From assembly GCF_000287335.1 (NCBI RefSeq), contig NC_018419.1:620001-684000 (forward strand): a stretch of DNA of 64,000 bases, read 5' to 3'. The DNA comes from a secondary endosymbiont of Ctenarytaina eucalypti (GTDB lineage: Bacteria > Pseudomonadota > Gammaproteobacteria > Enterobacterales > Enterobacteriaceae). Every line of letters starts with the position of its first letter. The stretch's first letter is position 1. A program made the translations under genes and the position numbers. The notes under the pieces are model-generated. The model ran no database searches, was not told the origin of the DNA, and was given only the letters and a program-made list of their open reading frames with translations. This document shows, in pieces, positions 1-21,002 of this stretch.

Positions 1-1458
1 ATCTTGCGTTCCTTGTTTCTTTTATATTCTATAATAAAGAGTTTGTCGTGGAGACATGACTCGCGCATACTTGCTCGTTGCAAAATCGTAGAGCCACTCT
101 AGCCTCTTCTTGTATTGCTTGGTGGCGCTGTAGTCGTTATGGATTTTTATCCTCTAACTTAGAGGCGAAGAGGCACCGTCCCTCACGCTTAAGTGATGTA
201 TTATGTATTAGGTGCGCAAGGAACGAGCCTTGCCTGTCTTCCTTAAAATTTAGCAGCAACATACAGTGATTTTCTACAGGCAAGATTAAGGGCAGGAAAA
301 GGAAGATGCTGTAGTATGGGTATTCACACATACCTACACCCGATAGACAGTCTAATTATTAAGGGATATAAATGGCTATTAAAGATGTCTATTGCATCGA
401 GATGCTCATGTTGATAGAGTTTTGATTCTCTCATTGCGATGAGACCATGACTCTATAAAATGCATGGAAATATTTGGTCAGGATCCGCTGTACTCAGTAA
501 AATTCTTTCAACACGCGGCCACTATGGCAAAGAAAAAATTTACAATCAGCAAAAATAAATAATCTACTTAAAACACACCCCTGAAGCAGCGCGGTGCTTT
601 TGCAGCATCAATGGTTTACTCACCCATCTTGCAGCATGGACAGAGCGCGCTTTTCTTAGATAACGTGTCCGGCCGTTTTTTCTGCTGAAATATACCGATT
701 CCTACGATTACTATCGTAGCAATAATAAACATAAGTGTATAGTATCTCGAAAAGAGCTTTACAGAGTTGCATGGTTTCAATGTTTACAACGATGTACCTA
801 ATACTACAATACCAAGAGTATATTTTGGCTTACTATACTGCAAAAAGAGCATGAATATTATTTATTAATAACTTTAATACGCCGTGCACCCACTCATGAC
901 GTTATGGATAACACTGCACTAAAAAATGTTGGCAAAGAAAAAGAACATCACAGCAGTATGCTGTGAACACATGAAGAGCAGGGCTGAGTCTCTATCTGGC
1001 ACTAAATAGCAAGACACATGAATGAACGCGGCATTGATTTATCGCATAGTAAACCCGCTGGACAATCAGGAAAGTAATTAATACGGGCGCCTATTCTCAG
1101 CGTAACTGTAGATAATGAGAGTCTGAAGAAGACAATCGCGTTTTTTATCCTCTACTCTACTTAGAGTATATAGTATTGTCGGTTTATATTCTAATCGTCA
1201 CTAAGTAGTAGATTTTTAATCCGGCCCCTTTTAATTTTTAAAAGCATCCAGAAGGTTTGCAAGAACCTCTTAATGAATATTTTCATATCAATCAGTTCAG
1301 ATAACATCTGACTGATTTTTCGTCTGGAGACATAGAGAAACGGCAAGTAGCTCTCTACTCCTTTCAAAAATGAAAGACCACCGTCTGATGTGAAAGTTTT
1401 TTGTAGCAAGAATCGGCACGCCTTAGCAGAAATTACACTTATGCCGAGACATGCCACA
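1..1458. other. Gene-free spacer before fabA
   Basis: AT-rich sequence with stops in all frames. Open frames here are short and lack a ribosome site or family resemblance. In E. coli rmf lies next to fabA on the opposite strand; I looked for its small basic protein and could not see it. I take this as eroded former coding DNA. Confidence 0.6.
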
Positions 1459-1977
1459 TTAGAAGATAGTGGCATCTTTAAACAGACCGACCTTCAAATC
1501 ACTGGCAATATAAATGATCCTTCCATCGCATAGGACTTCTCCATCAGCCATGCCCATTAACAGTTTTCGATTAATGATGCGACGAAAATGGATTCGATAG
1601 GTGACTTGTTTCGCACTTGGTAAAATCTGCCCGGTAAATTTTACCTCACCTACCCCAAGCGCGCGACCTCTTCCTTCACCGGACAGCCATCCTAAATAGA
1701 AACCCACCAACTGCCACATAGCATCCAGACCCAAACAGCCGGGCATTACCGGATCTCCGATAAAATGGCAGCCGAAGAACCACATATCCGGGTGAATATC
1801 TAGCTCTGCTTCCACGAAACCTTTATGGTACTTACCCCCATCTTCGTTCATTTTAACTACCCGATCCATCATCAGCATATTCGGTGCCGGCAATTTTGGC
1901 CCCTCTTTTCCGAACAGTTCGCCGCGGCTAGACGCCAAAAGATCTTCTTTAGTATAGAATGAGCGTTTATTTACCAT
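1459..1977 (-). CDS. fabA: 3-hydroxydecanoyl-[ACP] dehydratase/isomerase FabA
   Basis: Dehydrates 3-hydroxyacyl-ACP and isomerises the trans-2-decenoyl product to cis-3, the branch point of anaerobic unsaturated fatty acid synthesis in the cytoplasm. The protein has 172 residues, the same length as E. coli FabA, and is near-identical through the active-site helix [20 protein letters not shown], with catalytic His71 and Asp85 both present. The ATG start has a GAGA-type ribosome site and the first residues (MVNKR) match the family. It lies 65 bp downstream of ycbZ on the same strand, the enterobacterial order. Nothing suggests decay. FabB would be needed to use its product and is not in this window. 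Confidence 0.97.
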
Positions 1978-2042
1978 ATTTCTCTAAACCTTAAATATTG
2001 ATTCCCAATCATTACCCGACATATAGGGCACTAACAATACTC

Positions 2043-3794
2043 TTAGCGATCCTTGAGCCAGTTTAAACAGCGGAGACCCCAAGGAAAACGTTGCCCTTCA
2101 TGCAGATTAATATTGGCTATACGCTTGCGTATCGCCGCGAGCAGGCTAGGATGCTTTTCGTGGTTAAATGGCATGGAAATCAAGATTTCTAATGCCTCAT
2201 CAATAGTTCGAACTGCCCAAAGAGAAAAGTCTCCTGTACGCACTGCCTCGATGACATCGTCATTGAGGCAAAGATGGCGCACATTGGCACTAGGAAGAAT
2301 CACTCCTTGTTTCCCGGTCAGCTCGCGTGCCTGGCAAAGGGAAAAGAAGCCTTCTATTTTCTCGTTGATGCCGCCGATGGCCTGTACGTGGCCAAATTGA
2401 TCCACGGATCCAGTAACAGCCATTTGCTGATTAATAGGTTGATCCGCTAAGGCACTAATCAGTGCTACCCCTGCCGCTAGCGCGGCGCTATCACCGTCTA
2501 CTTCGCCATAAGACTGCTCAAAAACCAGCGAAGCTGAAAAAGGGAACTGTTGCTTAAGATCCAGCGCTGAAATTAAAAATGCCTGCATGATTAGCATGCT
2601 TTTAGCATGAAGATTTCCGCCTAATTCTACTTTGCGCTCAATGTCGTTAATTTCTCCATCACCCCCATGCACAACACAGCTAATACGCAAAGGCGCGCCG
2701 AATGCTAGAGGGTGACCCGGACAATCGAGCACAGACAGCGCATTGACTTGGCCGACGACCTGTCCCTCCGTTGCCACTACGATCTGCCCTTCGGTAATCT
2801 CATATTGCATACGCTCGATGAGATAACTCTCGCGCCACATCCGGTTACGCTTACTCTCGGTAAAAGCCGAGCCGGTTAACTCCTGCTGCGAGCTATGCAA
2901 CGCAGCTTCTTTTAGCCGGCGAATGATCCACTGCGGACACAGCGGTAGCTGGCACTTATCTCCACTGAAGCGAACTGACTGTCGAACTAGCGCTGGCCAT
3001 GCATCAGCGCTTAGTAGCGGTAAGCCCTGGCGCTGCGCAAGCGTGTTTACCCAAGTGCACCATTGGGTCATCTTTTGCGCGTCTGAAGTACGTAATTCGG
3101 ACTCAAATTCCCCATACAACGCCAAACACATCAGCTCGGGCTCCACATTGTTTAAGGCAGCTAACCCTTCACGATCACCGACTACGATAAGCCGTAAGTT
3201 CAGCGGCATCGATGGTACGGATACCGGCAATGGACGGCGTTCATCCGCAGGATGCCAATCAAAGCGCTGCTGTAAGATCATCCGTTTGAGCCGCAGCCAG
3301 AGAAATGGTTGGCTGATTATCGTGCGTGCACCGACGATAAGAACACCGCCGTTGACGCGATGTACTAGACCTGGATGAAGATTGATGGTGTCGTGATAAT
3401 AGCTAAGCGTGCCAAACAGCCGCTCATACTCAACCCAGGCCTCCCAGACGCAGGTGGAGCGAGCAGCAAAATTATCGTCTACATTAATTGCAGGCTGTTC
3501 ACTGACATTCATACCGCTTACGATATAGCGGCTACCGACTGGCTGATCTGACTCTGGCAAAATCTGCTTAACCGTCTCAGAAATGAGCTGAAGATATTCT
3601 TCTTCCTCTTGTGCCATCAGCACCATAAAACGGTTCGGCGAGTGTGCATAGCAAAACCGTGTCAACCCGTCCGTGAGACGGGCTTGAATCGTCTCTAACG
3701 GAGAAGTCAGAGGCGAGAAGGGTTTTTCAAATACCTCCTTGAAACTGGCCAGATCGGGCAGTAAATGTTTCCATGCTAATTTTTTGTTAGTCAC
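2043..3794 (-). CDS. ycbZ: Lon-like ATP-independent protease homologue YcbZ (LonH)
   Basis: 583 residues, matching E. coli YcbZ (586) end to end. The C-terminal part carries a Lon-type Ser-Lys dyad: Ser436 in EVDGDSAALA and Lys479 in GGINEKIEGFF. The N-terminal part is the degenerate ATPase-like region of the LonB/YcbZ family; I see no clean Walker A. The family is a putative cytoplasmic protease of unclear substrate. The start is GTG (protein MTNKKLAW), matching the family start, but no convincing ribosome site precedes it. The gene sits directly upstream of fabA. Survival of a full-length, motif-intact copy amid so much decay suggests selection. Confident of family, not of substrate. Confidence 0.93.
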   Translation of the reverse strand: MTNKKLAWKHLLPDLASFKEVFEKPFSPLTSPLETIQARLTDGLTRFCYAHSPNRFMVLMAQEEEEYLQLISETVKQILPESDQPVGSRYIVSGMNVSEQPAINVDDNFAARSTCVWEAWVEYERLFGTLSYYHDTINLHPGLVHRVNGGVLIVGARTIISQPFLWLRLKRMILQQRFDWHPADERRPLPVSVPSMPLNLRLIVVGDREGLAALNNVEPELMCLALYGEFESELRTSDAQKMTQWCTWVNTLAQRQGLPLLSADAWPALVRQSVRFSGDKCQLPLCPQWIIRRLKEAALHSSQQELTGSAFTESKRNRMWRESYLIERMQYEITEGQIVVATEGQVVGQVNALSVLDCPGHPLAFGAPLRISCVVHGGDGEINDIERKVELGGNLHAKSMLIMQAFLISALDLKQQFPFSASLVFEQSYGEVDGDSAALAAGVALISALADQPINQQMAVTGSVDQFGHVQAIGGINEKIEGFFSLCQARELTGKQGVILPSANVRHLCLNDDVIEAVRTGDFSLWAVRTIDEALEILISMPFNHEKHPSLLAAIRKRIANINLHEGQRFPWGLRCLNWLKDR

Positions 3795-6239
3795 AATGAT
3801 AAATAACGTCGCTGTTCAGGGAACCGCTGATTATACAAGAATAGATATTGCTTCGCCTCGACCTACATAACTACCTTGCAGGGGAAATTTGTACTATAGT
3901 TGAACTAAACACTTCTTTAGTGATTGCATTAACATTACGATAACTAGATGAGTAATAACCGCATATTTTCTTGATCATTTCACGCATGACTCAGAGTGAA
4001 TGAGAAGGGGTTAACAACCATGCATCATTTTTGTTGAAAAATGCATTATATACTTTTGGCTCAAAGAGCCGAAAGATCTTTTCAATATATAATAAAATAT
4101 GATGTCTTATCATGGCATCACACTATACTGCGATGCATGTTTCATGGCGATGCCACTTATCTCGAGTAAGCTATTTTTATAAGGTCTTAGTGCATAACAT
4201 GAAAGTAGAGAGCGCCATTTTTTACTAAACAAATAGTATAAAATATTCTGATTCAATAAAGAAAAGACTCGCATCATTCAGTCTTGTTAGAAAACAACAG
4301 ACCCGAGATGAGCGTAACTGCCATTAAAGATGCGTAGTAAAATAACAGTCTAATGCTTGGTTATTTAACAAACCCTACCTATATCACACAGTTATCTTAT
4401 TCTTCTACTGATAACACCTCAGAAGCCTACGAGAAAAACCTTATGGTGTTTGATTTTTAAAAAATCAATGATTTTACGAGATAAATACAATTCATGTCAT
4501 GACCTGTATTAGAATTCTATCTCTCCATCTGATGAGTGTATTCTTTCGGACGATACGTGATGCACTTGACAGTGAATAATTCAGGATCCGTCAGTAATCA
4601 CGCAAACTACATCATAAGGCTCGGCTAGTATCAGGAACATATTAAGAAAGCAGTCATCTCTTGTCTCTTACAACATCGTCTCTAGCGAGCCATAAGAATA
4701 TTTACGCACCCATGCATTCATTATCTTTCACAATCATTATATTCGACTCATGTTGGAAATGTAACGTAGGAGAGAGCAGTAGTTCCTATGTATTAGCTAT
4801 CTCTACGTCTTCACCAGAGCTGGGAGGTGATAACTCGCACCCTCAAGACAGCTCTGCGCTGTCTGACCGACTCGGTTCAATTGCTGATAGAACGATGAAA
4901 ATATTTTTTTGAACAAAGCGAAATTTAAGTGATTATTAATGCAGCTAATTACATGTGTATTAAAAATTTCAAAAAATAGCATCTATGGAAAAGTTAAGTT
5001 TTCTAATGTTCATTAGAACGACTGATAGCAAAGCACGTAAGAAGCGCAGTTCCCTGACAGAATATTAGAGATGCATCAACTATTTCTGCATAGATAGAAA
5101 AAAGTGCTCTAGGGCATAGCGATAAGATCCGGGACGATATCAGATAGATCAACGTTCACTATGCTAATGATGCAATAGGTGCTCAGCCTTTCGTGAATGC
5201 ATAAGAAGAATTTTTTGACGCATATGTAAACATACGGTACTATTTTGAAGATAAGACGAGTTTTCTTTTCTGAACAAGAGAGTAAAGAAAAGTTATACAC
5301 GCAGACACATGTCGACATGTAGTGCAGTGACCTATCTAGTCACTGTGATAACTCCGGCCTTACATTTTTTGGTGAATACACATAAAGAAACTAATCAAAA
5401 AACATAGAGATAGGAAAGTCATAGACATCAGATACATCTGGAAATAGACATCGGTACTAGATAAAATTTTATTTATGCTATTTGCTCCCATAGCAGTTCT
5501 ATAAAAATACCAAATTGATCTGATGTCATGAAACAACCCCTATAACGTGCGAAAATCCTCGCCTAATAATGCTAACCAGACACATGACTTTTTATGTGAT
5601 GTACTGTTGAGGAAAAATCAAGTTGGTTATGTGCCCACTAGCTGGATATGGCATAGTCGCCAGCTCCATCCGATTGGCCTAGCTAATTAGTTGCAATCAG
5701 CATCTGAGTGGCAGTTATGATACTCGGGGGGGAAACTCGTGCGCTTTCACCGCAACTCACTATCTAACAAGATTGTCTGCTGTCTTATAATAATTCCTGG
5801 CAGTTCACTGAATCTATGTGACTATGATGCACCGAGCAGCTCAGAGAGGGTAAGGATCACGATACGTAATTGGGTTGCGATGTTAGGCATACCGAACACC
5901 TTCGCATCTTGTACAGCATCTCTTCTAGCAGTATGCTTTCACCTAATCTAGTGGATTTCATCAATTCATGCTTACATCACATATCTTTCTTATAACATCT
6001 TTTCCAAAATAAACGATGATATATGACAAGATGATTCAATCGAATATTATAAGCTACCACTAGCGTCAAATCTTAATCACCATCACGGTTACTATATGGT
6101 TAGCTGGCGAAAGATAGAACAAATGAGGAAACAATGCTAACACGCATGCCTAACTTGGCTAACTGAGTTGACATGACAAAACAAAAAACTACCGATAAAT
6201 TCAAAGTTAACGTAAGGTTAGCACTGACTAATTTGACGC
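3795..6239. other. Gene-free spacer between ycbZ and serS
   Basis: About 2.4 kb with stops in every frame. In E. coli matP follows ycbZ divergently and rarA precedes serS; neither protein could be read here. The only clear structure is one arm (4407-4442) of a long inverted repeat, described separately. A TTGACA lies at 6168-6173, but no good -10 sits at normal spacing. Confidence 0.6.
4407..4442 (+). repeat. Left arm of a 36-bp inverted repeat flanking serS
   Basis: This segment equals the reverse complement of 7863-7898 at 35 of 36 positions; the single difference is a C/T at position 4415. Weaker similarity continues about 10 bp past 4442 (ATGGTGTT here, ATGATATT in the other copy, after a 2-nt gap). 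Its centre holds AGAAGCCTACGAGAAAAACC. No open frame is conserved. Confidence 0.9.
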
Positions 6240-6263
6240 GCGGCCCTCGATATAGAGGGCCGC
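6240..6263 (+). other. GC-rich stem-loop upstream of serS
   Basis: GCGGCCCTC (6240-6248), a 6-nt loop GATATA, then GAGGGCCGC (6255-6263): nine perfect GC-rich pairs inside AT-rich DNA, 56 bp before the serS start. No T-run follows, so a standard intrinsic terminator is unlikely. It may be the old terminator of a lost upstream gene or a structure in the serS leader. Confidence 0.7.
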
Positions 6264-6319
6264 GGCCATAGCCTGACAGCGTTCATGTACATTAGATAAC
6301 CATAAAGCACAGGACTAAT

Positions 6320-7675
6320 ATGCTCGATCCTAATCTACTGCGTAACGAGCTCAACGCAGTCGCCGAAAAATTAGCTCGCAGGAACTTTAGACTAGATGTA
6401 ACGACCTTACACCAGCAGGAAAGGTGCCGAAAAGCACTCCAGGTAAAAACCGAAAATCTACAGGCTGAACGCAAGAGTCGCTCCAAGGCAATTGGCATCG
6501 TGAAATCGTACGGGCAAAATATTGACTTGCTTCGCAAGCAGGGCAATCAGCTAAGTGAACGTTTAAGCGCCACCAAGACTGAACTAAACATCCTTCAGGG
6601 AACAATCCGCAACTACATGCTATTGCTGCCCAATATTCCCGCCGACGAGGTTCCCGACGGCTTAAATGAAAATGACAATCGAGAAGTCTCTCGCTGGGGC
6701 GAGCCCCGCCAATACAGCTTTCCCATTCTCGACCACATAGAGTTAGGAAACATAGCTAACGGTCTTGATTTTTCTGCAGCGATGAAGCTAACCGGTGCGC
6801 GCTTTGTCGTAATGCGTGGCCAAATTGCTCGCCTTCACCGCGCGCTAACTCAGTTTATGTTAGATCTACATACTGAAAAGCACGGCTATCTGGAGCATAA
6901 TCTGCCCTGTCTGGTGAATCGGGCCTCACTATATAACACTGGTCAATTACCAAAATTTACCGAGGATCTTTTTTATACGTATCCTCTTAGAAAAGATGTA
7001 AACACTCGAGGCTATGTGCTGATCCCAAGTGCGGAAGTACCACTGATAAACTTGATACGCGACGAGATCTTGGAGGAAGACGCACTGCCGCTTAAAATAA
7101 CCGCTCATACGCCGTGTTTTCGCTCTGAAGCTGGCTCGTACGGGCGTGATACTCGCGGTCTCATTCGCTTGCACCAGTTCGAAAAAGTAGAGCTGGTGCA
7201 GGTGGTCATCCCTGGGGAGTCGATGCAAGCACTAGAGGAGATGACAGGTCATGCCGAAAAGGTGCTACGGTTGCTGCAACTGCCGTACCGAAAAGTGCTT
7301 CTATGTACTGGTGAGATGGGATTCTCATCCTGTAAAACCTACGACTTAGAAGTCTGGCTGCCCGCGCAGAATACTTACCGTGAAATTTCTTCTTGCTCGA
7401 ACGTCGGAGACTTCCAGGCGCGACGCATGAGGGCACGTTACCGTAGCCAACAGGATAAAAAACTACAGCTGGTGCATACACTAAACGGCTCTGGTCTAGC
7501 AGTTGGTCGTACGTTGGTAGCGGTACTAGAAAATTATCAGTTGGCTGATGGTCGTATTAAAATACCCACAGCACTACAGCCGTATATGAACGGTCTGACC
7601 CATATCGACCACAATTATGACAAGCGCAAGGCGCCAATGAAGAGGTCTTGTTTTACGCAGAAGTATGCATGCTAA
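6320..7675 (+). CDS. serS: Seryl-tRNA synthetase, C-terminally extended
   Basis: Charges tRNA-Ser (and tRNA-Sec where present) with serine in the cytoplasm. It has the N-terminal coiled-coil arm (residues about 1-105, [20 protein letters not shown]), class II motif 2 at about 267-287 ([14 protein letters not shown]) and motif 3 at about 391-406 ([11 protein letters not shown]). The family normally ends at NGLEYIG, residue 430 in E. coli. Here NGLTHID is followed by 21 extra, partly basic residues ending QKYAC, so the original stop appears to have mutated to CAC and translation runs to the next TAA. The core looks intact. The ATG start matches the family. Confidence 0.97.
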
Positions 7676-7862
7676 GTGTGTTTCGCAAAAAAATACAGCG
7701 GCTTATATTCGTTAATGCAATCCAAGCATACTACGAACCACATAGTGGTCTACTGTATAATTAAAGAAGAATATAATTCTATTCAAGGCAAGAGGCTATT
7801 AGCAGGAGACGGAAGCACCTATTTTTTATTCAAAAGATATTATCTCTTTCATAATATCATAA

Positions 7863-7898
7863 AAGGTTTTTCTCGTAGGCTTCTGAGGTATTATCAGT
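7863..7898 (-). repeat. Right arm of a 36-bp inverted repeat flanking serS
   Basis: Reverse complement of 4407-4442 with one mismatch. The two arms are 3.4 kb apart and face each other across serS. Two neutral sequences in such eroded DNA should not stay this similar, so either the duplication is recent or something preserves it. Confidence 0.9.
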
Positions 7899-8191
7899 GC
7901 TCGAGCAAACCCTGTTCCAGGTACTGCATCATCTTTCACCATATTTTTACCATAGTTTTGGCAATCAACAAGGGCAGGCCTTGTGCGACAAACTTTTCAA
8001 CCATCTTTCGACGTTTTTCTACAGTGATGCCCTATACTCTTACTAATCATCGGCAGGCTTACAGTGCAAGAATCATTAAAAAAATGGCTACAAACTATGT
8101 CTGAAGATAAAAAATCACGCCCTTAGGATGCTATTCGCAATCAGCAATGACCTAAACATAACTTATTGAGAATTATTGTAGTTCATGAACC

Positions 8192-8237
8192 ACGGAGTAA
8201 CCAGCCCCTAACCCCGATTAGGGTACCCCAGCTCCGT
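8192..8237. other. Nested stem-loop in spacer
   Basis: Outer stem ACGGAG (8192-8197) with CTCCGT (8232-8237); inner stem CCCTAA (8206-8211) with TTAGGG (8218-8223). Both are perfect, nested, and lie in an unusually GC-rich island. It is too short for a tRNA and has no T-run. Function unknown; chance folding is possible. Confidence 0.45.
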
Positions 8238-9404
8238 TCGGTCTCTAACTTTTCTTGCGTACATGCATAATATTAGGAAGCAACCTATATATAGGCTGGT
8301 ATCAGCTTCGGCGCGTGTTGAGTGATGATAAGACTGATTAAATAAATGAATGTTACGCATTAGGATCAGTGTACTAATGAGTCTCTTCAGCGTAATATTA
8401 TGAACTTACACCTCAAAAAAATCACGACATATATAAAATGACAAGCGTTGTCTATTACACATACATAGCAGAACCGAACAATTCTGCATTATTCAATAAA
8501 GTCAATTCTACGTTTCACCGCACAATCCATTTTTTGAATCGATAGCGTGAATGCTTTTATTAAAACATCACGTTGAAACATCACGCACTATTTCGCGCTT
8601 TTTAGTCATGCAAAAAAGACAAGTAAAGAATAATAGGCAGGAGTGATCAAAAGCAACTTTAGCGAGCATGAAGTCGAACGTGTTGAGATATACAACATCA
8701 TTAGCAAACTTTCTACAATTGACATTCTTTCATTGGGCTCTTATAGTCACACCAATAAAACATGGAAAGAAATATCTATCAGTCTTTATGCTACAAATAG
8801 AAAACATTGAATAGCTCAAAAAGGTAACATATCAATTCGTCTAAAGGTTCGTTAGATTTCGTCTAACTCACACACCCTGCACCAAGTACATAATCGGCTC
8901 AGCGCCACTAAGAGCGCGCTGTTGTATGAAACTGTTTTCACGTCTTTACAAGACAAATACTCAAGAAGAATCATAATTTGCGTAAAGAAAAAAGACCACC
9001 TGCTAATAGCAGGCAAGAGATAACGGACGAGATCAGGATGAACCTAAACACTTGCATATTTTAATATGTCAAAAGAATATAAACAGAAAAAGTATGTGAT
9101 AATGCACAGGTTATAATTTAGCTTCATTCTTGATTCGTTACGATGTTGTTGTCCTGTCTCAGACATGAAAATAAGGATGCATAGTTATATATTAACTAAT
9201 CATTGTATTATTTTTCCCTTTTTTTAAAAAAATATACATAGTTTGATGTGAGCCTGAAAGTGCAGGGTATGTGAGCTACAATGTACGGTAGCCGTCAAAG
9301 ATTATTTTCTATTAATAGCTGTTTTCGAAAAAAACAAATAAGCCTGCTATGCCATAAAGCAAGCTTAGTAAGCCATGCTCTACTTTTTGGCAATATAGCC
9401 TTTT

Positions 9405-9530
9405 CTTATCCTGGATAACGTTATGATTTAGCGTTGGAGAGCGCTCGCATCAATAAATCGATAACATCAGCATTCTTTAATGAATCTTAATACCCGATTC
9501 AGAATAAGCAATGATTACAAGTATATTCAA
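9405..9530 (-). pseudogene. aroE: aroE remnant (shikimate dehydrogenase N-terminus)
   Basis: Starting at a TTG that overlaps the tsaC stop codon, the minus strand reads [17 protein letters not shown] followed by a stop. This resembles the AroE start [20 protein letters not shown], sharing I-A-x-S-x-S and I-H in register. Past the stop the same frame continues LMLSIY, stop, then SPTLNHNVIQ, resembling the AroE stretch around HPYGRVLAPINDFIN. tsaC-aroE is the standard enterobacterial order. At least two in-frame stops and a three-residue gap kill it; the rest of the 270-residue protein is unreadable. Confidence 0.6.
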
Positions 9531-10099
9531 CCCTGACGAATCAAGTCGCCGCTCAGTGCATCGCGAATTTCAGAAGGATTATCACGCCCTTCTACGACTT
9601 CGTTGAAGACTGGGAAAGCGACTCCTAATTGGTCATGCACTTCGGCAGTGGTGCGCGCTGGAGGCATGCCGGTCAGATTGGCGCTGGTAGACACCAATGG
9701 CTTACCGAATGCCAGGCAAAGACGGCGGACAGGTTCAAATGCACTATTACGTACCGCTAGTGATGCGTATTGACCCGTCAACCAGTACGGGGCTGTAGGA
9801 TGTGCTGGCATCACCCAAGTGACAGGGCCGGGCCAACGCGAAAAGATGCGCTCCCGTACAGTATTATCTAATGCGCTTTCGTCAATATAATCCGTGAGCT
9901 GGGCATAATGACCCGCAACTAAAATCAACCCTTTTTGCCAAGATCTCCGTTTTAGCTTGAGCAGCGCCTGAACCGCAATTTCGCTGTCCGGATCGCAACC
10001 CAGCCCGAATACGGCTTCTGTCGGATAAGCGATAACCCGCTGCTTGCGCAGCACGGTCAATAAACTTTTTATATCAAGTAAGGTAGATGTATGCTGCAT
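9527..10099 (-). CDS. tsaC: Threonylcarbamoyl-AMP synthase TsaC
   Basis: Makes threonylcarbamoyl-AMP from threonine, bicarbonate and ATP for the universal t6A37 tRNA modification. The 190-residue form starting at the internal ATG ([14 protein letters not shown]) equals E. coli TsaC in length; an upstream in-frame start at 10138 would add 13 residues without family support. YrdC-fold motifs are present: [57 protein letters not shown]. One oddity is the stretch VRNSAFEPV where relatives have VRVTDHPLV. The neighbours yrdD (upstream) and aroE (downstream) are dead, so only the essential member of the cluster survived. Confidence 0.95.
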
Positions 10100-10115
10100 G
10101 ATATTGTTTCTATAC

Positions 10116-10260
10116 CTACCTGTGCTGGCTTTTAGCAAAACAAAACTGCTTTAACGCTACGGGCGGTATTTCTTCATCAAGAGATGGACATGGGCGTATG
10201 ATGAGGTCCCTCACGCGAACTGATTATTGTGGCGTGACTGCAGTCCCGATATTGTGTATT
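10116..10260 (-). pseudogene. yrdD: yrdD remnant (topoisomerase I-like zinc-finger protein, C-terminus)
   Basis: Immediately upstream of tsaC the minus strand has a 35-codon open stretch (10119-10223) ending [20 protein letters not shown] and then SQHR before a stop. It resembles the E. coli YrdD C-terminus, where a CPEC zinc knuckle is followed by GVKHFCASKQC; the CP and FC pairs and the spacing roughly match, but two of the four cysteines are gone. A stop precedes the stretch at 10224-10226. yrdD directly upstream of tsaC is the enterobacterial order. The assignment rests on synteny plus weak similarity. Confidence 0.42.
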
Positions 10261-11556
10261 TTTTTCAGTTTTAAGAATCTCTTCTTGCACAGCTTGATAT
10301 TATTTTCCTTTTTTAATAATGAAGTTAATAAAATTTGATATAAAAATTATTAGATAATAGGTGATAAATACTAGATCTGTACGCTGTACTAAAAAACGCT
10401 TTAGCCCCATATCCGCCATTAAAACATTTAACAAGATAGACTGGGATACTGTTCTGTCAACGGTACTACATTGTTCTAAATAATGAGAAAGATGCTGTAC
10501 AGAGATCTAGGCATTACCTGCATATCTTTTTGATACATGCCAAAACTGCAACCCACGTATATCAAAGATAGACTCATGCCAATTCCTACAGTGATGCTTT
10601 TCTCCGACGCAGACGGGGTGTTGATTAAAATAATGCATGGAGAGCAGGAATACTTAACATGACTATAAACGTTATGAAAGACTACGAGAGATGCCTGAAC
10701 ATTTCATTATGCGGTTAAGTACTTTGGCACAACAAAATCAACGTCGCTATCGCTGCTTGCCTTTGAAGCTACACATTATACTCATATAAACGCAGATGAT
10801 TATACGAAAGCGTTTTCAAGGGGAGTGACTTCCCGTTTCGAGCAAGTCAGCCGCCAGCCATACCCTACTGTCTTGCCCCAGGGATCAAGACTACCGCTCA
10901 AAATTTAATGTTGAGTCCTGTCTTTATTCTTATGGTAATAAGCTATAGAAGGTTGCGGACCTCTTCCAAGAGCGGATCAGTGGCCTCATCATCTCCATCA
11001 ATACAGGAAGATCATAAAGTAACGTGTATCATACATGCTATCAGTTAACACTGCCCTACTTCTTGAGAAGAAGACCGAACTATTTTAGCCCAGCAAAAAA
11101 GCAAAGTATAGCGTAAGTGACATCTTACATTAAAAATACCGTAGATAATACCATCTATTTCCATTTATCTGGCGCCAGTAAGACTGATGTACTGGCGTCT
11201 GCCAGATGTGTCAAACAAACTCCACGACCCGGTCAGTAAAATGCCTCTTGATCCCGCGGCTTACGATGCACATTACTGTTATCATGCTCTATTAAGGAAG
11301 GAAATTAAGCTACTTATTCTGTTGCATTAAAACGTCTAAGTACGAATTATCCTTATTCTGTAGTGTAACTACACACAAGATTATAGGAATAATCAGATTC
11401 AAAACTGGTAGCGTGCAGTGTATAGCGTGATTGCTGTAGCGTACAATCATGAGGTTAGACTAGATGAGAAAACCGCATCCGCGAAACATATAGCGTGTTT
11501 CTAGAAAAAATTTAACATAGAACAGAATAATTCTCTTTTATTTCATAAAGTCTCAC
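10261..11556. other. Gene-free spacer
   Basis: About 1.3 kb with frequent stops. In E. coli smg and smf lie beyond yrdD; I could not read either. No repeats or RNA genes recognised. Confidence 0.6.
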
Positions 11557-11682
11557 GTGGCTGAAAACAAAGATCTCATTAGGCGTAATAATCCATGGAA
11601 CAGCCAGGATACGTTCACCGCACCACGCTGGCTGAAAACGGCTATGTTCTGGTTCAACACACTGCTGAGTGGCCATTGCTAG
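11557..11682 (+). pseudogene. Unidentified ORF fragment upstream of rnb
   Basis: A GTG-started 41-codon frame begins MAENKDLIRRNNPWN, continues TAPRWLKTAMFWFNTLLSG and stops. Its composition (a polar N-terminus, PWN, then the start of a hydrophobic helix) looks like the first 40 residues of an inner-membrane protein cut short by a stop, unlike the low-complexity translations of the surrounding DNA. A competing frame from 11595 overlaps it. I do not recognise the family. It could be a truncated gene or chance. Confidence 0.28.
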
Positions 11683-12063
11683 CTCTACGTGAGTATGAGA
11701 TACAAGCAGCCATGGCGATAGTAATAGTTAAAAATACACTTAACCGAACAATGCTTTTAGAAATGCCGTACATTGTAGGCTTTAGGTTATACCAGCTTTG
11801 CTGGCTACTAAATCCTCCTATACTCTATTAAGTTCAATAAAGCCTGAATATTGCAAAATTGGTTTCTAAAAAAATATTATCGCACTAAGTTAAGGTAAGC
11901 GAACAAGCTGGTTCTGCTCATAAATGAGATTATTTTTGGTGAAAGCAAGCTAAAGAATGCGTTTCCCCTACTTCACATAACCACTAGACTTGCCGCCAAA
12001 GAACGAATCGCGTAAAACTATCTACTGCAACTTAACACACTCTCATCCACTTTTTTGGGCATT
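11683..12063. other. Spacer upstream of rnb
   Basis: About 380 bp. No gene or convincing promoter seen; the stretch just before rnb has no clear Shine-Dalgarno sequence. Confidence 0.55.
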
Positions 12064-13995
12064 ATGTTTCAAAACAATCCGCTGCTTGCACAGCTAAAAA
12101 AGCAACTACATTCTCAGAAACCACGAGTTGAAGGAGTGGTAAAAGGCACAGAAAAAGGATTTGGCTTCCTAGAAGTCGATCCGCAGACAAGTTATTTTAT
12201 TCCACCCTCTTTTATGAAAAAAGTGATGCACGGTGATAAAATCACCGCTGTAATACGAACTCAGAAAGACCGGGAGATTGCGGAGCCAGAAGAACTTATC
12301 GAACCATTTTTGACACGGTTTGTGGGGCGTCTTTATATTAAAGACGATTATATGACCGTCTCACCAGATCACCCGCTGATTGAAGTAATTTTAACGCGGC
12401 CGCAGCACGGCATTGGCCACACTTTCAAAACCGGCGATTGGGCAGTTGCAGAACTACGTCACCACCCACTGAAAGGCGATTACCAGTTTTACGCGGAAAT
12501 CACCGCACTAGTCGCTACTGCAGAGGACCATTTTGCACCCTGGTGGGTTACGCTCGCCCGTTATAATCTTGCGCGCGCTGCACCGGAAATGCCTGAAGGG
12601 CTTGCCATAGAGAAAAGTGGTCTCGCCCGAGACGACCTGACTATGCTAGATTTTATCACCATCGATAGCGCCGCTAGCGAAGACATGGACGACGCCATTT
12701 ATCTAACCAGAACCTCTAACGGTAACTGGGTCATGACAGTTGCCATCGCTGATCCCACCGCGTGGGTGCCGGCCGGCAGTCTGCTGGATCGTATCGCCCG
12801 CGAACGCGCTTTCACTACTTACCTTCCAGGGCTCAATATCCCCATGCTGCCTCGTGAGCTATCCGACGATCTTTGCTCTCTGCGTGCCCATGAACGGCGG
12901 GCGGCGTTGGTGTGCCGTGTTACAGTACAGCAGGATGGAAGCCTATGCGATGATGCGTATTTTTTTACTGCTTGGGTAGAATCTAAAGCCAAACTGGCCT
13001 ATGACCATGTCTCGGACTGGCTAGAAAATACCGGCACATGGCATCCGAACCGTGAGGCTATAAGGGATCAGCTACGCTTGCTATACGAAGTTTGCCAGGC
13101 CCGCAGTGCCTGGCGTCAGCATCACGCCCTAGTGTTCAGGGATCGTCCAGATTATCGCTTTTTAATTGACGAAAAAGGGAATGTAGACGATATCGTCATC
13201 GAGCCACGCCGCATCGCTAACCGCATGATAGAAGAGGCAATGATCACCGCAAACATCTGTGCCGCGCGCATATTACGTGACAGATTAGGCTACGGCCTCT
13301 ACAATGTTCATCATGGTTTTAATCCACTACTAGTAGATCGGGCAGTGGCACTTCTTCGCGCTCATCACATTCATGTCGAAGCAAGTGAACTTTTGACGCT
13401 GGAGGGGTTTTGTGCACTGCGTCGTCGGCTGGATGCCCTACCTACTACTTACCTGAATAGCCGTATTCGCCGTTTTCAAACCTTTGCTGGAATCAGCACG
13501 GCACCTGGAACGCACTTTGGGCTAGGACTAGATGCCTATGCAACCTGGACGTCACCTATTCGTAAATACGGCGATATGCTTAATCACCGCCTTCTAAAAT
13601 CATTAATTGGTGTCGGAGAAGCTGAGCGGCCAGGCGAAGACGATACGCTTCTACTCGCCGAACGCCGCCGAAAAAATCGCATGGCGGAGCGAGATGTAGG
13701 AGATTGGCTCTACGCCCGCTTCCTGCAGCCGAAAGCAGGAAGCGGGCGCCGATTTTCGGCGGAGATAGTCGATATCCTGCGGGGCGGCATGCGAGTACGT
13801 CTGTTAGATAACGGCGCGGGGGCTTTTATTCCCTCACACTTTATTCATAACGTACGTGATGAACTTGTCTTCCGCCAAGACACTGGCACTATACAGGTAA
13901 AAGGGCGAGAACGCTACCGTCAGGGCGACACCCTTGACGTCACCCTCACCGAGGTAAAAATGGAAAATCGCTCGGTCATTGCCCGCCCGGCATAA
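12064..13995 (+). CDS. rnb: Exoribonuclease II
   Basis: Processive 3'-5' hydrolysis of single-stranded RNA. From the ATG at 12064 ([17 protein letters not shown]) the protein is 643 residues, against 644 in E. coli; a TTG three codons upstream lacks support. The order is N-terminal cold-shock domains ([16 protein letters not shown]), the RNB catalytic domain with the metal-binding acidic cluster [11 protein letters not shown] near residue 200, the conserved [16 protein letters not shown], and a C-terminal S1 domain ending [11 protein letters not shown]. No frameshift or stop. It stands alone between spacers of 380 and 750 bp, whereas relatives have other genes beside it. Confidence 0.97.
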
Positions 13996-14751
13996 ACTGA
14001 ATCATTATTCTTTACGCGTAAGGATCCATGTTGTGGATGCTCCTCTGGTTTCTCTTATGCGCGTTATTGAAAAATACAGTAGCACTTCCTTCGAAGTTTC
14101 ATGCAATACCAGCATCCAGAATCATTTGTTGCAATATCAGCGATAGTTGATTTATCTCTCTTTGAACCCCTGAATAATGACAATAGAACTGGATTTTTTT
14201 TAAACACCGCTTACAGCTGTAGCATTGGTCAACGAATATCAAGTCATTTTTACATTGCAATTCCTTGAAATTACATCAAGGACGGCAAATAACTGCAATC
14301 GCTTCTAGAGCCTATTCTTAAAATCATAGAGCATAATCAACGAATTGGAAGCAGGGTCAAAAACCTCTCTGCTATCCTGAGTCAAAGACGGATATACCGA
14401 GTACAATGTAGGCATGCTGTTATTGATTTTATCCAGGATGCTTGGTGTGCTCTAGTAAGCCAGCATAAGCTAGATGATACCCAGAATCACGCTTTCTTTC
14501 TCGAAGTAGAAAGGTTGTATTATTATCTGCTGTAGAATATCGGCGTCCCACCCCGCTCAAACTTGCATGATTCGCTATTACATCATAAGCGCTGTATGTT
14601 ATTATGCAGGTAATATAATCATCTAATGCTTCAGTAAAATAGTATATGTTATCCGGTTCTTTGGATGACACTCTGAAAGAACGGCGTAGTAGTAACGCCC
14701 CGAGCGAACTCAAATACTGACTTCTGTCGCCGTCATGAAGAACAGTAGAGA
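13996..14751. other. Gene-free spacer between rnb and grxA
   Basis: About 750 bp. A 94-codon minus-strand frame (14429-14713) has no ribosome site or family resemblance and is not accepted. Nothing else recognised. Confidence 0.55.
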
Positions 14752-15003
14752 TTATAATATTGCTTTAATATAAGCCTCAAAATCAGTGTAGCCGCCAATA
14801 TGGATCTGATCTACAACAATTTGAGGCACTGTTTTCACTGGCTTGCCTATCATTTTCGAAAGATCAGCCTTGGAGAGGCCTTCAGCGTAGATATCAACAT
14901 AACTATAAGTGAAATTATCTAGCTCTGCAGTTAGTTTTTCAGCTAACTTTTTAGCGCTTACGCAATAAGAACAGCCCGGACGACCGAAAATTACTGCAAG
15001 CAT
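14752..15003 (-). CDS. grxA: Glutaredoxin 1
   Basis: Glutathione-dependent dithiol-disulfide oxidoreductase that reduces ribonucleotide reductase and other substrates. From the ATG at 15003 (MLAVIFGRPGCSYCVSAKKL) it has 83 residues, like E. coli Grx1 (85). The start is supported by AGGAG seven bases upstream; a longer frame from 15042 is not. The active site is CSYC instead of the usual CPYC: both cysteines stay, the proline is replaced by serine. The conserved TVPQI cis-proline loop and GGYTDF glutathione-binding segment are present. Confidence 0.95.
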   Translation of the reverse strand: MLAVIFGRPGCSYCVSAKKLAEKLTAELDNFTYSYVDIYAEGLSKADLSKMIGKPVKTVPQIVVDQIHIGGYTDFEAYIKAIL

Positions 15004-17787
15004 AACTACTCCTAATGATATACATGAATATTGCAACAGCAACCACGGTAGGTGCTACTTTTTTAGCAATTAATTATCCTGCTACCAAAAAAGGCAGGCA
15101 GGGGAAGTGAGCGGATCATTACATCGCCATAGTGAATCTTTAGTATCGAATGTACGGGGGGAACTCCTTCAGTCTATTTATTTTCACCCCCCAGAGAGGC
15201 TGGCCTCATTTTTTCTCACCTACACGGGACAATGTGGGTGGGGTAATGTCTCGCCAAAATCGACGCTTGTCTGATCACAGTCTAATAGCAACCTTTTGAG
15301 GAACTTTGTTACACAAAGCTAACGGTTTATAACGAATGAACATATTCGCATAATTAGTGTGGCAAGATACGGTCCGCGCGCTTCATTCTTAACAGGTTCA
15401 TTTAATGTAAGGCGTTCGGTGATGATTTCCATCACCGAATCTATCGGCACATCATAGTTGAAAAAACTCAAATCATAGCCTCTCAGTATAGTAACACAGT
15501 CTCGAGCTATTTTAGTTAGTCCTTTATAAGCATTGAGTTGCTTGTTTATGTATCTGGTCTATTGCAGTCAATGCAGTTATTTGTGACTACAGGGTTACTT
15601 GCATAGTCAGGAATAGCGCATATTATGAACCTATGAAGAGTCGAGATCAGCGGTGTACTATTCTTCTTCAAATTGAATCTTGACGAAAGTCTATAATATG
15701 TCACCTCAGTGGGTTAAGTCTGTTACTGCTGTTTTCGTAGAATTTCTGTATACAATCCAGCAGGCCCGATACATTATTAATATTTCTTTTCTATTAATAT
15801 CTTTTAATAATATCACATGTCTTTTTTATTTACTAGCATATTTTTGTGTGATATAGTTAACTATTTTATAAATACTGCGCATAAACTCCCTATTTTGCCT
15901 TCGAAAAAATTTCAAGTCTGTGCTATATCATCATATAAAATAGCTACTTCCACGGTTGTCTAACTTTCTTATGCTAATATTCAGTATTTTTTGTCGTCCT
16001 TTTGCTAAGAAAAACTGATTTGAAACTTTTATTAGTAGAGCCACACACCTTAGACATTGCGCTCATGACTGTCTATAACGCTCCGGGCAACCAGTGAAGC
16101 GCTGTGTGATAATCAGCCACCTGCTAATATTTTTATTTTGAGTAAAACGGTGATTAGCCAAACCGTTCTATGCAGAAATAGCAGCATTCTTTAATCTAAA
16201 ACTGTAAGATAGTTTCAATGCTTGAGGACTATTTTTTAGGTTGTTAACTTTAATATTTTTAACCGATAAATGCGATTTTTTTTGAAAATGCAGATAGTGG
16301 GCTAGCTAAAAAATTTTCTTAAATTTTATTGTGTTGAATCACATTATTCGGAAAAATTGACTTTGATCAGATATGTCAATATTGTTGAATATATAATTTC
16401 TTAGCTCTTCACTACTATACACGCTTCAATGAAAGTTATATTTTCCAGCGTCTGGGGGTTGTAATAAACCCTCAGAGACAAAACACCATCAGTTCCAGTA
16501 ATATATTTTGGCCAGTAATAAATGATTTTTCGAAAAACCTTAGTAAATTGCAATGCCACTAATGCCTCACTCACTGATTTGTGATATTAAAGCGTCACTA
16601 TATCAAGGTTTATATTTCATCTAGCGTTATTAAATAATAATAATGTTATAGTTTAAGATTGTTCAATCAACTTATTCGTACAACGCTTGCTCAACTGTCG
16701 TGAACACATTAAGTCAGATATTGCTGAACAAAAAAAGAAACTTTTCTCAGAAAACGGTGGCGATATCAGTTTTGATTAAAGAAAACGAACCGTGTTTTTG
16801 ATGATATAAAAGGTATGCATTTTTTCGCTAAGAGCCTCATAGCGATTCGTTAGCTTACGTATTCGACTTGACAAATCTGCCGCTAAGATACCGGAACTCT
16901 GCTTTACGTAGCAAGCGACGACCAAAAAAAGTACATATCAGCATGCAGCTTCCAAAGACAATGAAAGCATTCGTTGAGTCCTTGATAGAAGCGACCTAAA
17001 ATTTTTGGTACAGGAGTACAAAGAGCATAATATCAGCATCTCGAAAATCGCAGCATATGATATAAACGATATCCAGTAATCAAACCGCGCACCTATGACA
17101 TGATCTAGTGCTTGCTAATTATCTTATGGGTAGTACCGCTACTACATAAGCCGCATTGGCTTTAATAAAGCATGTTCAAGAACACATTTATGACGTATCG
17201 GCTGAGCAAGCTTAAAAACACATTAATTACTACGTTCATGGTTCATAGGGGAACAAGAGAAAGTTTCCAACCCCTACCCCGTTTCAGAGTGCTTAAGATC
17301 ATCCAAACACCTTTGCTGTAAAGGTGAAAATGCTATTGACAATCAAGCCCTAATCGCTATTGCATGATACTTGAAAATAAGAAATAGGCCATCATGAGCC
17401 CTAACATAACTGAAAGAGAGCTTTTTCGGTTCAAAACACTTCTCTGTAATCATAGCAGTCAGCATTACTATGAGGCACTGCCTAGGGGCGGTCATCTTAA
17501 AAGTTACAACCCTTAACCGCATTATAGGCTATGAGATATATGATACCTACTACCCGAACCACCTCACAATAGCTTTTTGGACGCGAAACCTTGTATAAAA
17601 ACTTCGGCATGTGCACTAAAGCTGGTGTTAAATTTAAAGAGCTACATTAGCTCCCTAAGCTAACGGCATACAATCTATTTCTTCAACCGCTGTGGTGATA
17701 TCATGATCCAGATGCAATTATTCAGTCTTATCTATGAGCTAGGCTTAAAGAAAAACATGTACGCTACAATAGAAGGGCATATCGTTG
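15004..17787. other. Gene-free spacer between grxA and rsmD
   Basis: 2.8 kb of eroded, locally very AT-rich DNA. A 40-codon frame at 17394-17516 has reasonable composition, but I recognise no family. One copy of a short direct repeat (17553-17574) lies here. In E. coli ftsYEX lies divergently beside rsmD; I could not see an FtsY start. Confidence 0.55.
17553..17574 (+). repeat. Short dispersed repeat, copy 1
   Basis: The sequence from CCCGAACCAC to CACAATAGCT recurs at 61453-61474 with 21 of 22 positions identical. A 12-nt core (CCTCACAATAGC) recurs at 23459-23470. All three are direct copies in non-coding DNA. Possibly an eroded mobile-element end or gene family, but I cannot name it. Confidence 0.5.
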
Positions 17788-18423
17788 ATGGGACCTGTAG
17801 TCTTTTGCGCTTTGATGCATCATAAGAAAGTTATATCAAACACCAACAGCCCCCGATCAGCCGGTCACATTCGTATCATCGGCGGGTGCTGGCGAGGTCG
17901 TAAATTGCCAGTACCCAATAGAAGTGGCCTCAGACCGACGAGTGATCGCATACGGGAAACGTTGTTCAACTGGCTAGAGCCCGTCATCCAGAAAGCGCAT
18001 TGTCTGGATTGTTTTGCTGGAAGCGGGGCGTTGGGTCTGGAAGCTCTATCACGTGGTGCTGCTAGCCTCACCCTGCTTGAGCAGGATCGATCGGTCAGCT
18101 CGCTGCTCGTCAGGAATCTACGGGTATTAAAAGCGCAGCAAGCTCGGGTCGTCACTACCAATAGTCTACGCTGGCTTGCGCAGACGGGAAATACGTTTAA
18201 TCTGGTCTTTATCGATCCGCCATTTAGGCAATGCCTGATAAACAAGACGGTAGATGTACTAGAACAATACCGGAGATTGTCTAACGGTGCCTGGATTTAC
18301 ATTGAAACCGAAATAGAAGCACTGACCCTTCAGATGCCCGCCCACTGGGCGTTACATCGGGGAAAAGTTACCGGTCAAGTAGCATATCGGCTCTACATTC
18401 GCCATCCTACAAAGATTTTTTGA
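17788..18423 (+). CDS. rsmD: 16S rRNA (guanine966-N2)-methyltransferase RsmD
   Basis: SAM-dependent methylation of G966 in 16S rRNA of the 30S subunit. Rossmann motif I is LDCFAGSGALGLEALSRGAA and the catalytic motif IV is FIDPPF. The conserved N-terminal HIRIIGGCWRGRKLPVP and C-terminal GQVAYRLY are present. The 211 residues exceed E. coli's 198, mostly by a longer N-terminus. AAGGG at 17773-17777 supports initiation at the ATG at 17788 or the TTG just before; the ATG at 17815 fits family length better but has no ribosome site. Confidence 0.94.
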   Translation: MGPVVFCALMHHKKVISNTNSPRSAGHIRIIGGCWRGRKLPVPNRSGLRPTSDRIRETLFNWLEPVIQKAHCLDCFAGSGALGLEALSRGAASLTLLEQDRSVSSLLVRNLRVLKAQQARVVTTNSLRWLAQTGNTFNLVFIDPPFRQCLINKTVDVLEQYRRLSNGAWIYIETEIEALTLQMPAHWALHRGKVTGQVAYRLYIRHPTKIF

Positions 18424-19060
18424 ATTATATAGTATCATGCTGTTTTATTCTGTCATTTGAATAAAATTTGCTTTTATATCAGGTGTGCTATTTTTGCATA
18501 TAGTCTACTTGCATGATTTTACGTTTCAGAGAACAATAGATTTCTTGAACCGAAAGAACAATGCTTATTAATTCAACCTCATCATTATGGTCCTATTGAT
18601 TCTCGTCTATAAACAGGGCGCTGAAACAAGAATTATTGATAGCGATATAGCTATAATATATCGTTTCCATAAGAGGAAGCGGTATAATTCATCTAGCGCC
18701 GATTTCAGCAAGCAGATTCTCGACGAGAATCTCCACCAATATCGTTAAATGGCAAAACATAAAAATAACCCCCCTGATGTAGGTACTATCATCTTTTTTC
18801 ATAGACATGATCAAAGCTTGTGGGTGTTCAAAAAAAATTGCGCAACACCATTTTCTTCTAGTCGTTCCGGGTAAGTATGATTTCGGCACGCTATTTACAT
18901 GGCTCCTTCCTCCTTGCTACAGTAAGGTTCTTGTATCGTCTGGCGCCGCACTGAGCCGGATGTGACTAATCGACCGTCGCGCATTTTTCTTAAGCCGTGC
19001 AGGCAACCCTAACGTTCAGTCTATTGTCTATAGAGGGGCGATAACGTTTATTCCCCATCC
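18424..19060. other. Spacer between rsmD and yhgN
   Basis: About 640 bp between convergent genes. A GC-richer patch at about 18900-19060 shows no readable family in either strand. No terminator with a T-run seen for either gene. Confidence 0.5.
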
Positions 19061-19654
19061 CTAGGCGCAGAGATAGGCTCGGACACCGTCTAAGAACATC
19101 TGCGTCGCGATCATGACCAATAATAAGCCCATGATCCGCTCAAGCGCGCTCACTCCTTTGCTCCCAAGCAACCGCAAAAAAATGTTTGACATTATTAAGA
19201 TCACAAAAGAAAGTAGCCATGCAATTAGTAAAGACAAAACTAAATAGTTGATTTTCTCTGGATACTGATGCGATAGCAACATTATCGCCGCGAGGATTGA
19301 AGGTCCGGCAACTAACGGAATTGCGAGAGGCACCAAAAACGGTTCTTCCCCCATCGGCTGGCCGGTACAGTTGCCTTCTTGGGCAGGAAAAATCATTTTG
19401 ATAGCGATTAGAAAGAGAATAATTCCGCCGGAAATAGATACCATTTCAGTGCGTAGGCTGAGAAAAGATAAAATGTGTTCTCCTGCAAAAAGAAAAACCA
19501 GCATGAAAAGCAGCGCTATAAGCATTTCCCTGATGATAATAATACGCTGTCGCTTCGGTTCGAGATGTTTGAGCACCGACATGAATATAGGCAAGTTGCC
19601 TAAGGGATCCATAATTAAAAATAACAAAACAGTGACCGATATCATTTCACTCAT
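19061..19654 (-). CDS. yhgN: MarC/UPF0056-family inner membrane protein YhgN
   Basis: 197 residues, the same length as E. coli YhgN, with about six hydrophobic segments expected to span the inner membrane. Family landmarks are MDPLGNLPIFMSVLKHLEPK near the N-terminus, SISGGIILFLIAIKMIFP in the middle, VPLAIPLVAGPSILA, and ALERIMGLLLVMIATQMFLDG at the C-terminus. Function in the family is not established. The ATG has a GAGGGA ribosome site. It is divergent from asd with 223 bp between, and yhgN beside asd is the enterobacterial arrangement. Confidence 0.95.
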   Translation of the reverse strand: MSEMISVTVLLFLIMDPLGNLPIFMSVLKHLEPKRQRIIIIREMLIALLFMLVFLFAGEHILSFLSLRTEMVSISGGIILFLIAIKMIFPAQEGNCTGQPMGEEPFLVPLAIPLVAGPSILAAIMLLSHQYPEKINYLVLSLLIAWLLSFVILIMSNIFLRLLGSKGVSALERIMGLLLVMIATQMFLDGVRAYLCA

Positions 19655-19877
19655 TATTCCCTCATTACCTCGACGTCATCAGCGTCAAAGACTTAGTAAC
19701 GGCAAGCGCCCAATATCAGCGCTGCTGCTGAAAAAACTTCATATAGAATAATATCACTTGCGGCATTGCTGCTACATTTTATATGGTGGTTAGTAGCGTA
19801 TTCTACTGACGTGACAATATTCAGTATAAGAGTACGGAAAATGGTTTGTCACCCCCCCTACGGCAGGACAGCTAACG

Positions 19878-21002
19878 ATGAAAAAAGTTGGTTTTATTGG
19901 ATGGCGCGGTATGGTTGGTTCAGTGCTGATACAGCGCATGACCGAAGAGTGCGATTTTGACGGCATCCGCGCGATATTTTTTTCTACCTCTCAACATGGT
20001 CATCCGGCGCCAGCCATAACCAGCCAGAAAAGTGTACTGCAAGATGCCTGGGATCTTGACGCGCTCAGCGTGCTGGATATTATTGTCACTTGTCAGGGAA
20101 GTAAGTACACCAACAAAATTTATCCGCGCCTTCGTGAAATAGGCTGGAAGGGATATTGGATTGATGCGGCATCATCGCTACGTATGAGAGATGATACAAT
20201 TATTATCCTCGATCCCGTCAACCAGGCAGTGATTCAGCGAGGCCTGGACCGTGGTATTAAGACGTTTGTCGGCGGCAACTGCACCGTTAGCCTCATGCTA
20301 ATGTCTCTGGGAGGGTTATTCGCTCGGGATGTAGTTGAATGGGCTTTGGTTGCCACTTATCAGGCGGCATCTGGTGGCGGCGCACATCACATGCGTGAAC
20401 TCCTATTACAAATGGGAGACCTGTACAATGCAGTAGCCGAACCGATAAAAAACCCGGCTTCAACCATGCTAGAGATCGAACGGCAGGTTACCGATCTAAG
20501 TCGTAGCGGCAATCTGCCGACAGATCATTTAGGTGTGCCACTAGCTGGTAGCCTGATACCTTGGATAGATCAGCAGCTTGAAAATGGCCAGAGCCGAGAG
20601 GAATGGAAAGGGCAGGCGGAAACCAATAAAATTCTTAACACCCGTCAGACAATACCGATAGACGGTTTGTGTGTACGCATCGGCGCCCTACGCTGCCATA
20701 GCCAGGCCTTTACGCTAAAGCTAAAGAAAGACTTTCCGATAGCGGAAATTGAACACTTACTCGAAACACATAATGATTGGGTGACCGTCGTCCCTAATGA
20801 TCGTGAACTATCGATGAAGGAATTGACGCCGTCAGCAGTAACCGGGACGCTGAAAACTCCAGTCGGTCGGTTACGAAAATTGAATATAGGGCCAGAATAT
20901 CTTTCGGCATTTACAGTAGGCGACCAGCTATTGTGGGGCGCTGCTGAACCCTTGCGCCGCATGCTGCGACAGATATCTCATGAGTCTTTCGAGCAACATT
21001 GA
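19878..21002 (+). CDS. asd: Aspartate-semialdehyde dehydrogenase
   Basis: NADPH-dependent reduction of aspartyl phosphate to aspartate semialdehyde, feeding lysine/diaminopimelate, threonine and methionine; DAP for peptidoglycan is the likely reason for retention. The N-terminal nucleotide-binding loop reads [12 protein letters not shown], the catalytic cysteine lies in [15 protein letters not shown], and the substrate-binding stretch is [20 protein letters not shown]. 374 residues against 367 in E. coli; the C-terminus carries a few extra residues ([10 protein letters not shown]). The ATG follows a CAGGA ribosome site. Confidence 0.97.

Follow-up and report, generated by a model that had tools for sequence, protein, structure and literature searches.

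A near-perfect 36-bp inverted repeat around serS in an endosymbiont of Ctenarytaina eucalypti, possibly the trace of a recent template switch

Invertible segments of the fim and hin types are flanked by short inverted repeats, some tens of base pairs long. Other events that leave inverted duplicates are described in several organisms. Inverted template switches are reported from Escherichia coli, with microhomology of 3 to 30 bp at the junctions in the portion of the study drawn on here (PMC3161906), and the cited section of a yeast study describes both template switching and the homogenisation of inverted-repeat arms (PMC8604942). In Drosophila, inverted duplications at inversion breakpoints are attributed to staggered breaks in the part of the source used here (PMC3355041). 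DNA duplication associated with inversion is treated, in the excerpts consulted, for Helicobacter and Thermus (PMC8963470, PMC6933940), PMC6933940 in turn citing Furuta 2011. A search of the literature on inversions, symbionts and RecA-independent inverted duplication yielded these mechanisms and not the serS case, and absence in print is not claimed.

The inverted repeat and its setting

The window analysed is a stretch of 64,000 nucleotides, positions 620001-684000 of the single 1,441,139-base contig of the endosymbiont. An initial annotation had reported a 36-bp inverted repeat, identical at 35 of 36 positions, bracketing serS. Both arms are found to the base at 4407-4442 and 7863-7898, each 36 nt long and 35/36 identical in inverted orientation, with 3420 nt between them and the serS frame (6320-7675) enclosed. 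The features of the region are listed below in window coordinates, with reference to G004, a Sodalis-like genome that has a 4.7-Mb chromosome.

2043-3794, minus strand: Lon-like protease gene, the left neighbour, which we take to be lonB/ycbZ; the left synteny block is marked by this gene together with its 5' flank, which runs to 3864
4407-4442, plus strand: left arm of the inverted repeat (36 bp), 35/36 identical to the reverse complement of the right arm
4443-6180, no strand: non-coding, eroded DNA between the left arm and the serS upstream stretch, presumably the side facing rarA in G004; no clear relic of 12 neighbour proteins, native-like strand skew
6181-6317, plus strand: stretch upstream of serS still alignable to G004 (G004:C1:3061536-3061671, 75% identity)
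6320-7675, plus strand: serS, seryl-tRNA synthetase, an open frame of 451 aa enclosed by the arms, 80% identical to G004 over residues 1-445
7676-7862, no strand: eroded DNA between serS and the right arm; the alignment to the downstream side of G004 serS reaches about 7711
7863-7898, minus strand: right arm of the inverted repeat (36 bp), the sole other genomic match to the left arm
8643-8988, plus strand: relic presumed to be metJ, on the right the nearest ancestral gene beyond the arm that can be clearly recognised, 66% DNA identity to G004:C1:4556701-4557050

The sole mismatch between the arms lies at 4415, a C, where the right arm read on the minus strand has a T (position 7890). Both edges of each arm are abrupt, the match stopping sharply on either side of the 36 bp, and the arms are embedded in unlike flanks. 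Weak similarity had been said to continue past the arms, a claim that does not hold: gapped alignments of the inner and outer flanks (45, 60, 100 and 200 bases) score no better than shuffles, the fraction of shuffles equalling or exceeding the observed score being 0.25 to 0.98. No microhomology at the arm junctions was seen by eye in the sequence, nor any target duplication at the arm edges, where an eroded one could be missed. No other inverted repeat listed for the 64-kb window is as strong as this pair. An analytic estimate based on base composition puts the expected number of such inverted pairs at about 4e-8 for the 1.44-Mb genome and 3e-10 for spacings within 5 kb, and a chance origin is rejected at this genome-wide expectation.

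The closest relatives of serS are found in Candidatus Sodalis sp. SoCistrobi (81%), G004 (80%) and Candidatus Sodalis endolongispinus (79%), and the genome looks Sodalis-allied. Such neighbours, like the reduction and erosion of the genome, point to an insect symbiont. Matches at E 1e-100 or better occur in 389 of the 392 family genomes; among those listed, none but that of the genome itself is above 80%. No sister genome was seen, the best other serS match among those listed being 80% in the family genomes and 81% in the search that gave the two Candidatus Sodalis matches. To note, in many relatives the part that matches the 451-residue SerS stops near residue 430 or runs into a stop codon further on (one TAA in G004, for example); the usual stop codon appears to have been lost and about 20 residues added.

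The DNA around the arms had been described as eroded past recognition, which is essentially right. Of 48 frameshift-tolerant comparisons (12 ancestral neighbour proteins, two regions, both strands, with 12 shuffles per test), a single one was clear, metJ at 8763-8992 (score 120 against a shuffle maximum of 40), and this relic lies outside the arms, to the right; it lacks an open frame of normal length. Two narrow passes, the C-terminal part of ftsK (43 against a shuffle maximum of 40) and, in the right-hand region, matP (38 against 36), exceed the shuffle maximum by 2-3 points, about the chance yield of 48 tests. Genes are islands in this genome, about 53% of its middle 224 kb lying outside open frames of 120 aa or more, and the window holds no tRNA genes. 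Promoter-like sites number 13, against 9.5 (sd 2.9) in shuffles, and terminator-like sites 3, against 2.7 (sd 2.0); nothing is made of these counts.

Copies, other repeats and recombination machinery

The genome holds two copies of the repeat in all, as found both with a 91-base query and with a 26-mer at up to 3 mismatches. In a family sample of 198 genomes, the 36-mer at up to 3 mismatches occurs in one, its own; it is absent from the 197 others, a sample that includes no close relative. With two copies here and none in the 197 others, the repeat is therefore neither an IS end of a common kind nor a site shared across the family. This argues against two ideas raised in the initial annotation: a mobile-element end pair, for which the copy search returned only the two arms in 1.44 Mb, with no target duplication at their edges by eye, and a protein-binding site kept by selection. 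A selection of 13 serS loci was taken from some 10 genomes of relatives, three of them represented twice; none of the 13 carries an inverted repeat that reaches 40 bits, and none gave a match to fabA or lonB. A virus or plasmid origin was also discarded: the 26-mer is absent from IMG/VR, and the 56 records returned by a plasmid search with 151 bases around the left arm are weak (best E 0.1 among 20 matches listed) and read as chance. An RNA element was rejected as well, since Rfam gives no match at gathering score over the window and two sub-threshold matches only near the region (E 2.1 and 2.4).

A census of repeats compared 704 kb (48.9% of the genome) with itself; pairs with a member outside this sample are invisible to it. 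Five pairs exceed 50 bits, the serS pair scoring 63.9. A direct pair (71.9 bits, 87.5%) reads by eye as tRNA genes, and a 63-bp inverted pair (337754-337816 / 438526-438588; 87%, 61.9 bits) has its members 100 kb apart. A second clean inverted repeat lies at 480862-480893 / 480987-481018 (31/32, 93-bp spacer, 56.0 bits), beyond a 131-aa frame taken for rplQ; its 157 nt, in DNA without a recognisable gene, fold at -70.1 kcal/mol. The last, a 30-bp direct pair (832653 / 832947, 52.0 bits), is read by eye as repeated lipoyl-domain coding sequence, and no other direct pair in the 704 kb reaches both 30 bp and 95% identity.

The genome has no match to RecA (PF00154), which is matched in 14 of 14 control genomes, and none to serine recombinases (PF00239), matched in 10 of the 14. 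Tyrosine recombinases (PF00589), found in all 14 controls, are represented by one short match with two stops (226811-226957), and XerC/XerD also seem to be lost. Homologous flipping, RecA-driven conversion and site-specific inversion by these two recombinase classes are consequently poorly supplied at present. Gene conversion, which had been suggested as maintaining the arms, is disfavoured in its RecA-driven form by the missing RecA match. RecA may have been lost only after the copying event considered below.

Gene order and strand skew

Window positions 1471-3864 (fabA-lonB) match G004:C1:2999380-3001773, positions 6181-7607 (serS) match G004 at 3.060-3.062 Mb and the glutaredoxin gene at 14770-15042 matches it at 3.095 Mb, all three on its minus strand, while the metJ relic (8643-8988) matches at 4.557 Mb. 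The alignment to G004 breaks in two gaps, 3864-6181 and 7607-8643, with one arm in each. Breaks are found everywhere: window 1-20000 has eight G004 matches at eight places, and contig positions 605001-620000 have five matches at four places. Since nearly every gene block lies at a different place in G004, arms in alignment gaps are expected by chance. The lonB-serS distance is about 60 kb in G004 and about 437 kb in a further genome, G034. Gene order is ambiguous on whether the serS segment was turned. To note, gene blocks are shuffled relative to G004 in a genome of which the sampled half is poor in repeats. Elsewhere in the window, a relic at 11628-11767 matches six places in G034 (71-72%); the one inspected is the end of a 323-aa frame, read as a transposase.

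The flanks do not single out either arm as the original. Loose-score DNA alignment of the eroded stretches to G004 gives long alignments, as it does for AT-rich control stretches, and was not trusted. A hint from it, that the left arm might be the 3' end of matP, was dropped: 3865-4406 and 3865-4470 are at shuffle level (164 and 144 of 200 shuffles as good, respectively). All comparisons with candidate ancestral places are at shuffle level save two on the right side, where against G004 DNA downstream of serS 10 of 200 shuffles are as good for 7676-7862 and 18 of 200 for 7899-8300, values that are marginal with several stretches tested. If they were true, the right arm would sit inside native serS-downstream DNA; nothing is drawn from this.

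The 1925 nt of non-coding DNA between the arms have a TA skew of -0.062 and a GC skew of -0.015, compared with means of about -0.02 and -0.05 in non-coding control pieces; taken by itself, the G-C component is a weaker native signal than is typical. With a discriminant score on pieces of equal size, 13 of 60 native controls fall at or below the segment and none of 60 reversed pieces reaches it; with nearer controls, the figures are 5 of 28 and 0 of 28. The log likelihood ratio of native over reversed is 4.3 nats for the 60 controls and 3.0 nats for the 28, values obtained from one 1.9-kb segment and control pieces that vary widely. The 187 nt right of serS included in the skew set overlap a 142-aa frame, and the control mask would have excluded such DNA. 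As the arms differ at only one position in 36, and are on that count probably recent, a turned segment should still show a turned skew. The native-like skew speaks against a recent flip and favours a flipped 36-bp copy with the segment unturned. It is given more weight here than gene order and is not called proof.

Origin of the repeat

Our tentative preference, put at slightly under an even chance, is that the arms are one 36-bp stretch and a recent ectopic inverted copy of it, which an error of replication or repair, independent of RecA, placed in neutral DNA undergoing decay. The growing strand would have left its template for the complementary strand some 3.4 kb off, been extended by 36 bases there and returned. 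The serS segment would not have been turned; few genes remain in the region, and serS would owe its place between the arms to being one of them. Both the template switch and its independence of RecA are presumed, and the arms probably do nothing. Near-identical short inverted arms with abrupt ends, the feature that the template-switch model calls for, are present; the repeat is far beyond chance and exists in two copies only, homologous and site-specific routes are poorly supplied, the skew inside is native-like, and a second clean inverted pair was found in the 704 kb, where the only comparable direct pair is read as coding sequence. Against this reading, the skew comes from one 1.9-kb segment with a weak G-C component, neither arm is singled out as the original, the microhomology known from E. 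coli junctions is not seen here by eye, two inverted pairs are too few for a recurrent process, and the by-hand gene-order argument favours an inversion scar. The initial annotation held that arms so alike must be recent or maintained. Its logic is sound; the single difference in 36, taken from sequence, suggests recency, while maintenance is opposed by the two copies, the 197 genomes without one and the missing recombinase and RecA support.

Somewhat unlikely, though the strongest competitor to a copied stretch, is the scar of a 3.4-kb inversion, in which staggered breaks at one end were filled in, 36 bp were duplicated in inverted form at both ends and serS was turned round. The mechanism is documented in the parts of the sources cited (PMC3355041; PMC8963470), and inverted duplicates are present on both sides of the enclosed segment, as breakpoint duplication needs. 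The arms lie in the two G004 gaps, which breaks everywhere make an expected coincidence. Turning serS back would leave the lonB-serS junction explicable by one larger inversion, by hand reasoning on the roughly 60-kb distance in G004; the same two genes are some 437 kb apart in G034, however, and with serS, lonB and the glutaredoxin gene all on one G004 strand there is no call for a flip of serS alone. The skew inside is native-like, and none of the 60 or 28 reversed pieces reaches the segment. Of the inversion site proposed initially, a scar survives as a candidate, yet with the skew against a recent flip; a switch is improbable, with no serine-recombinase match and a stop-bearing tyrosine-recombinase match.

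A maintained element, that is two binding or recombination sites (of an invertible segment or a regulator) kept alike by selection or conversion, is improbable. It would account for the high arm identity amid otherwise eroded DNA, and back-and-forth flipping would leave almost no skew, a state that the measured values do not strongly contradict. It is opposed by the occurrence of two copies only, with none in the 197 other genomes or at the 13 serS loci, by the lack of any Rfam match at gathering score and, within the families searched, by the recombinase and RecA results. We consider it equally improbable that the arms descend from an imperfect inverted repeat of greater age, such as the remains of an ancestral one, and were homogenised only recently, when they annealed to each other or when synthesis switched template from one to the other. 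Such homogenisation is documented in the cited part of PMC8604942, and the relic at 11628-11767 shows that a multicopy transposase gene has left remains in window DNA; against this, similarity past the 36 bp is not significant in either direction, and 3.4 kb would be far for such a process. Least probable is an assembly or chimeric-read artefact. The assembly is a single contig, but the arms differ at one base and have unlike flanks, and a false copy would usually be perfect and longer.

A wider proposal is doubtful: that a RecA-less symbiont still makes short inverted copies and small inversions by a RecA-independent process that leaves near-perfect footprints of 30-40 bp, the serS and rplQ-side pairs being two recent events. 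Were it true, the mechanism behind the shuffled gene order of such genomes could be caught at work. Taken alone, the repeat is real, clean and isolated, apparently a neutral scar that ordinary mutation of known kinds would explain. Should the reading as a recent inverted copy hold, the arms would record a recent episode of copying or rearrangement without RecA. In the stretch compared, the gene order of this genome differs from that of a Sodalis-like genome at nearly every block, and its sampled half contains few other repeats; traces of this sort could reveal how genes change places once homologous recombination is gone.

Compared with invertible segments of the fim or hin kind, the locus likewise has an inverted repeat of tens of base pairs flanking a segment, but there is no serine recombinase, the tyrosine recombinase match bears stops and what the arms enclose is a housekeeping gene that keeps upstream DNA of its own. 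With the breakpoint duplications of Drosophila, Helicobacter and Thermus, as far as the cited portions describe them, it shares single-copy DNA repeated in inverted form on both sides of a segment, whereas its arms are just 36 bp long and the skew inside is native-like. It differs from the template-switch inverted copies and quasipalindrome mutations of E. coli and yeast in the 3420 bp that separate its 36-bp arms, in the lack of microhomology seen by eye and in a RecA independence that is assumed; with these systems, in the parts of the sources cited (PMC3161906, PMC8604942, PMC7202029), it has in common near-perfect inverted arms of the kind that a switch of template strand produces.
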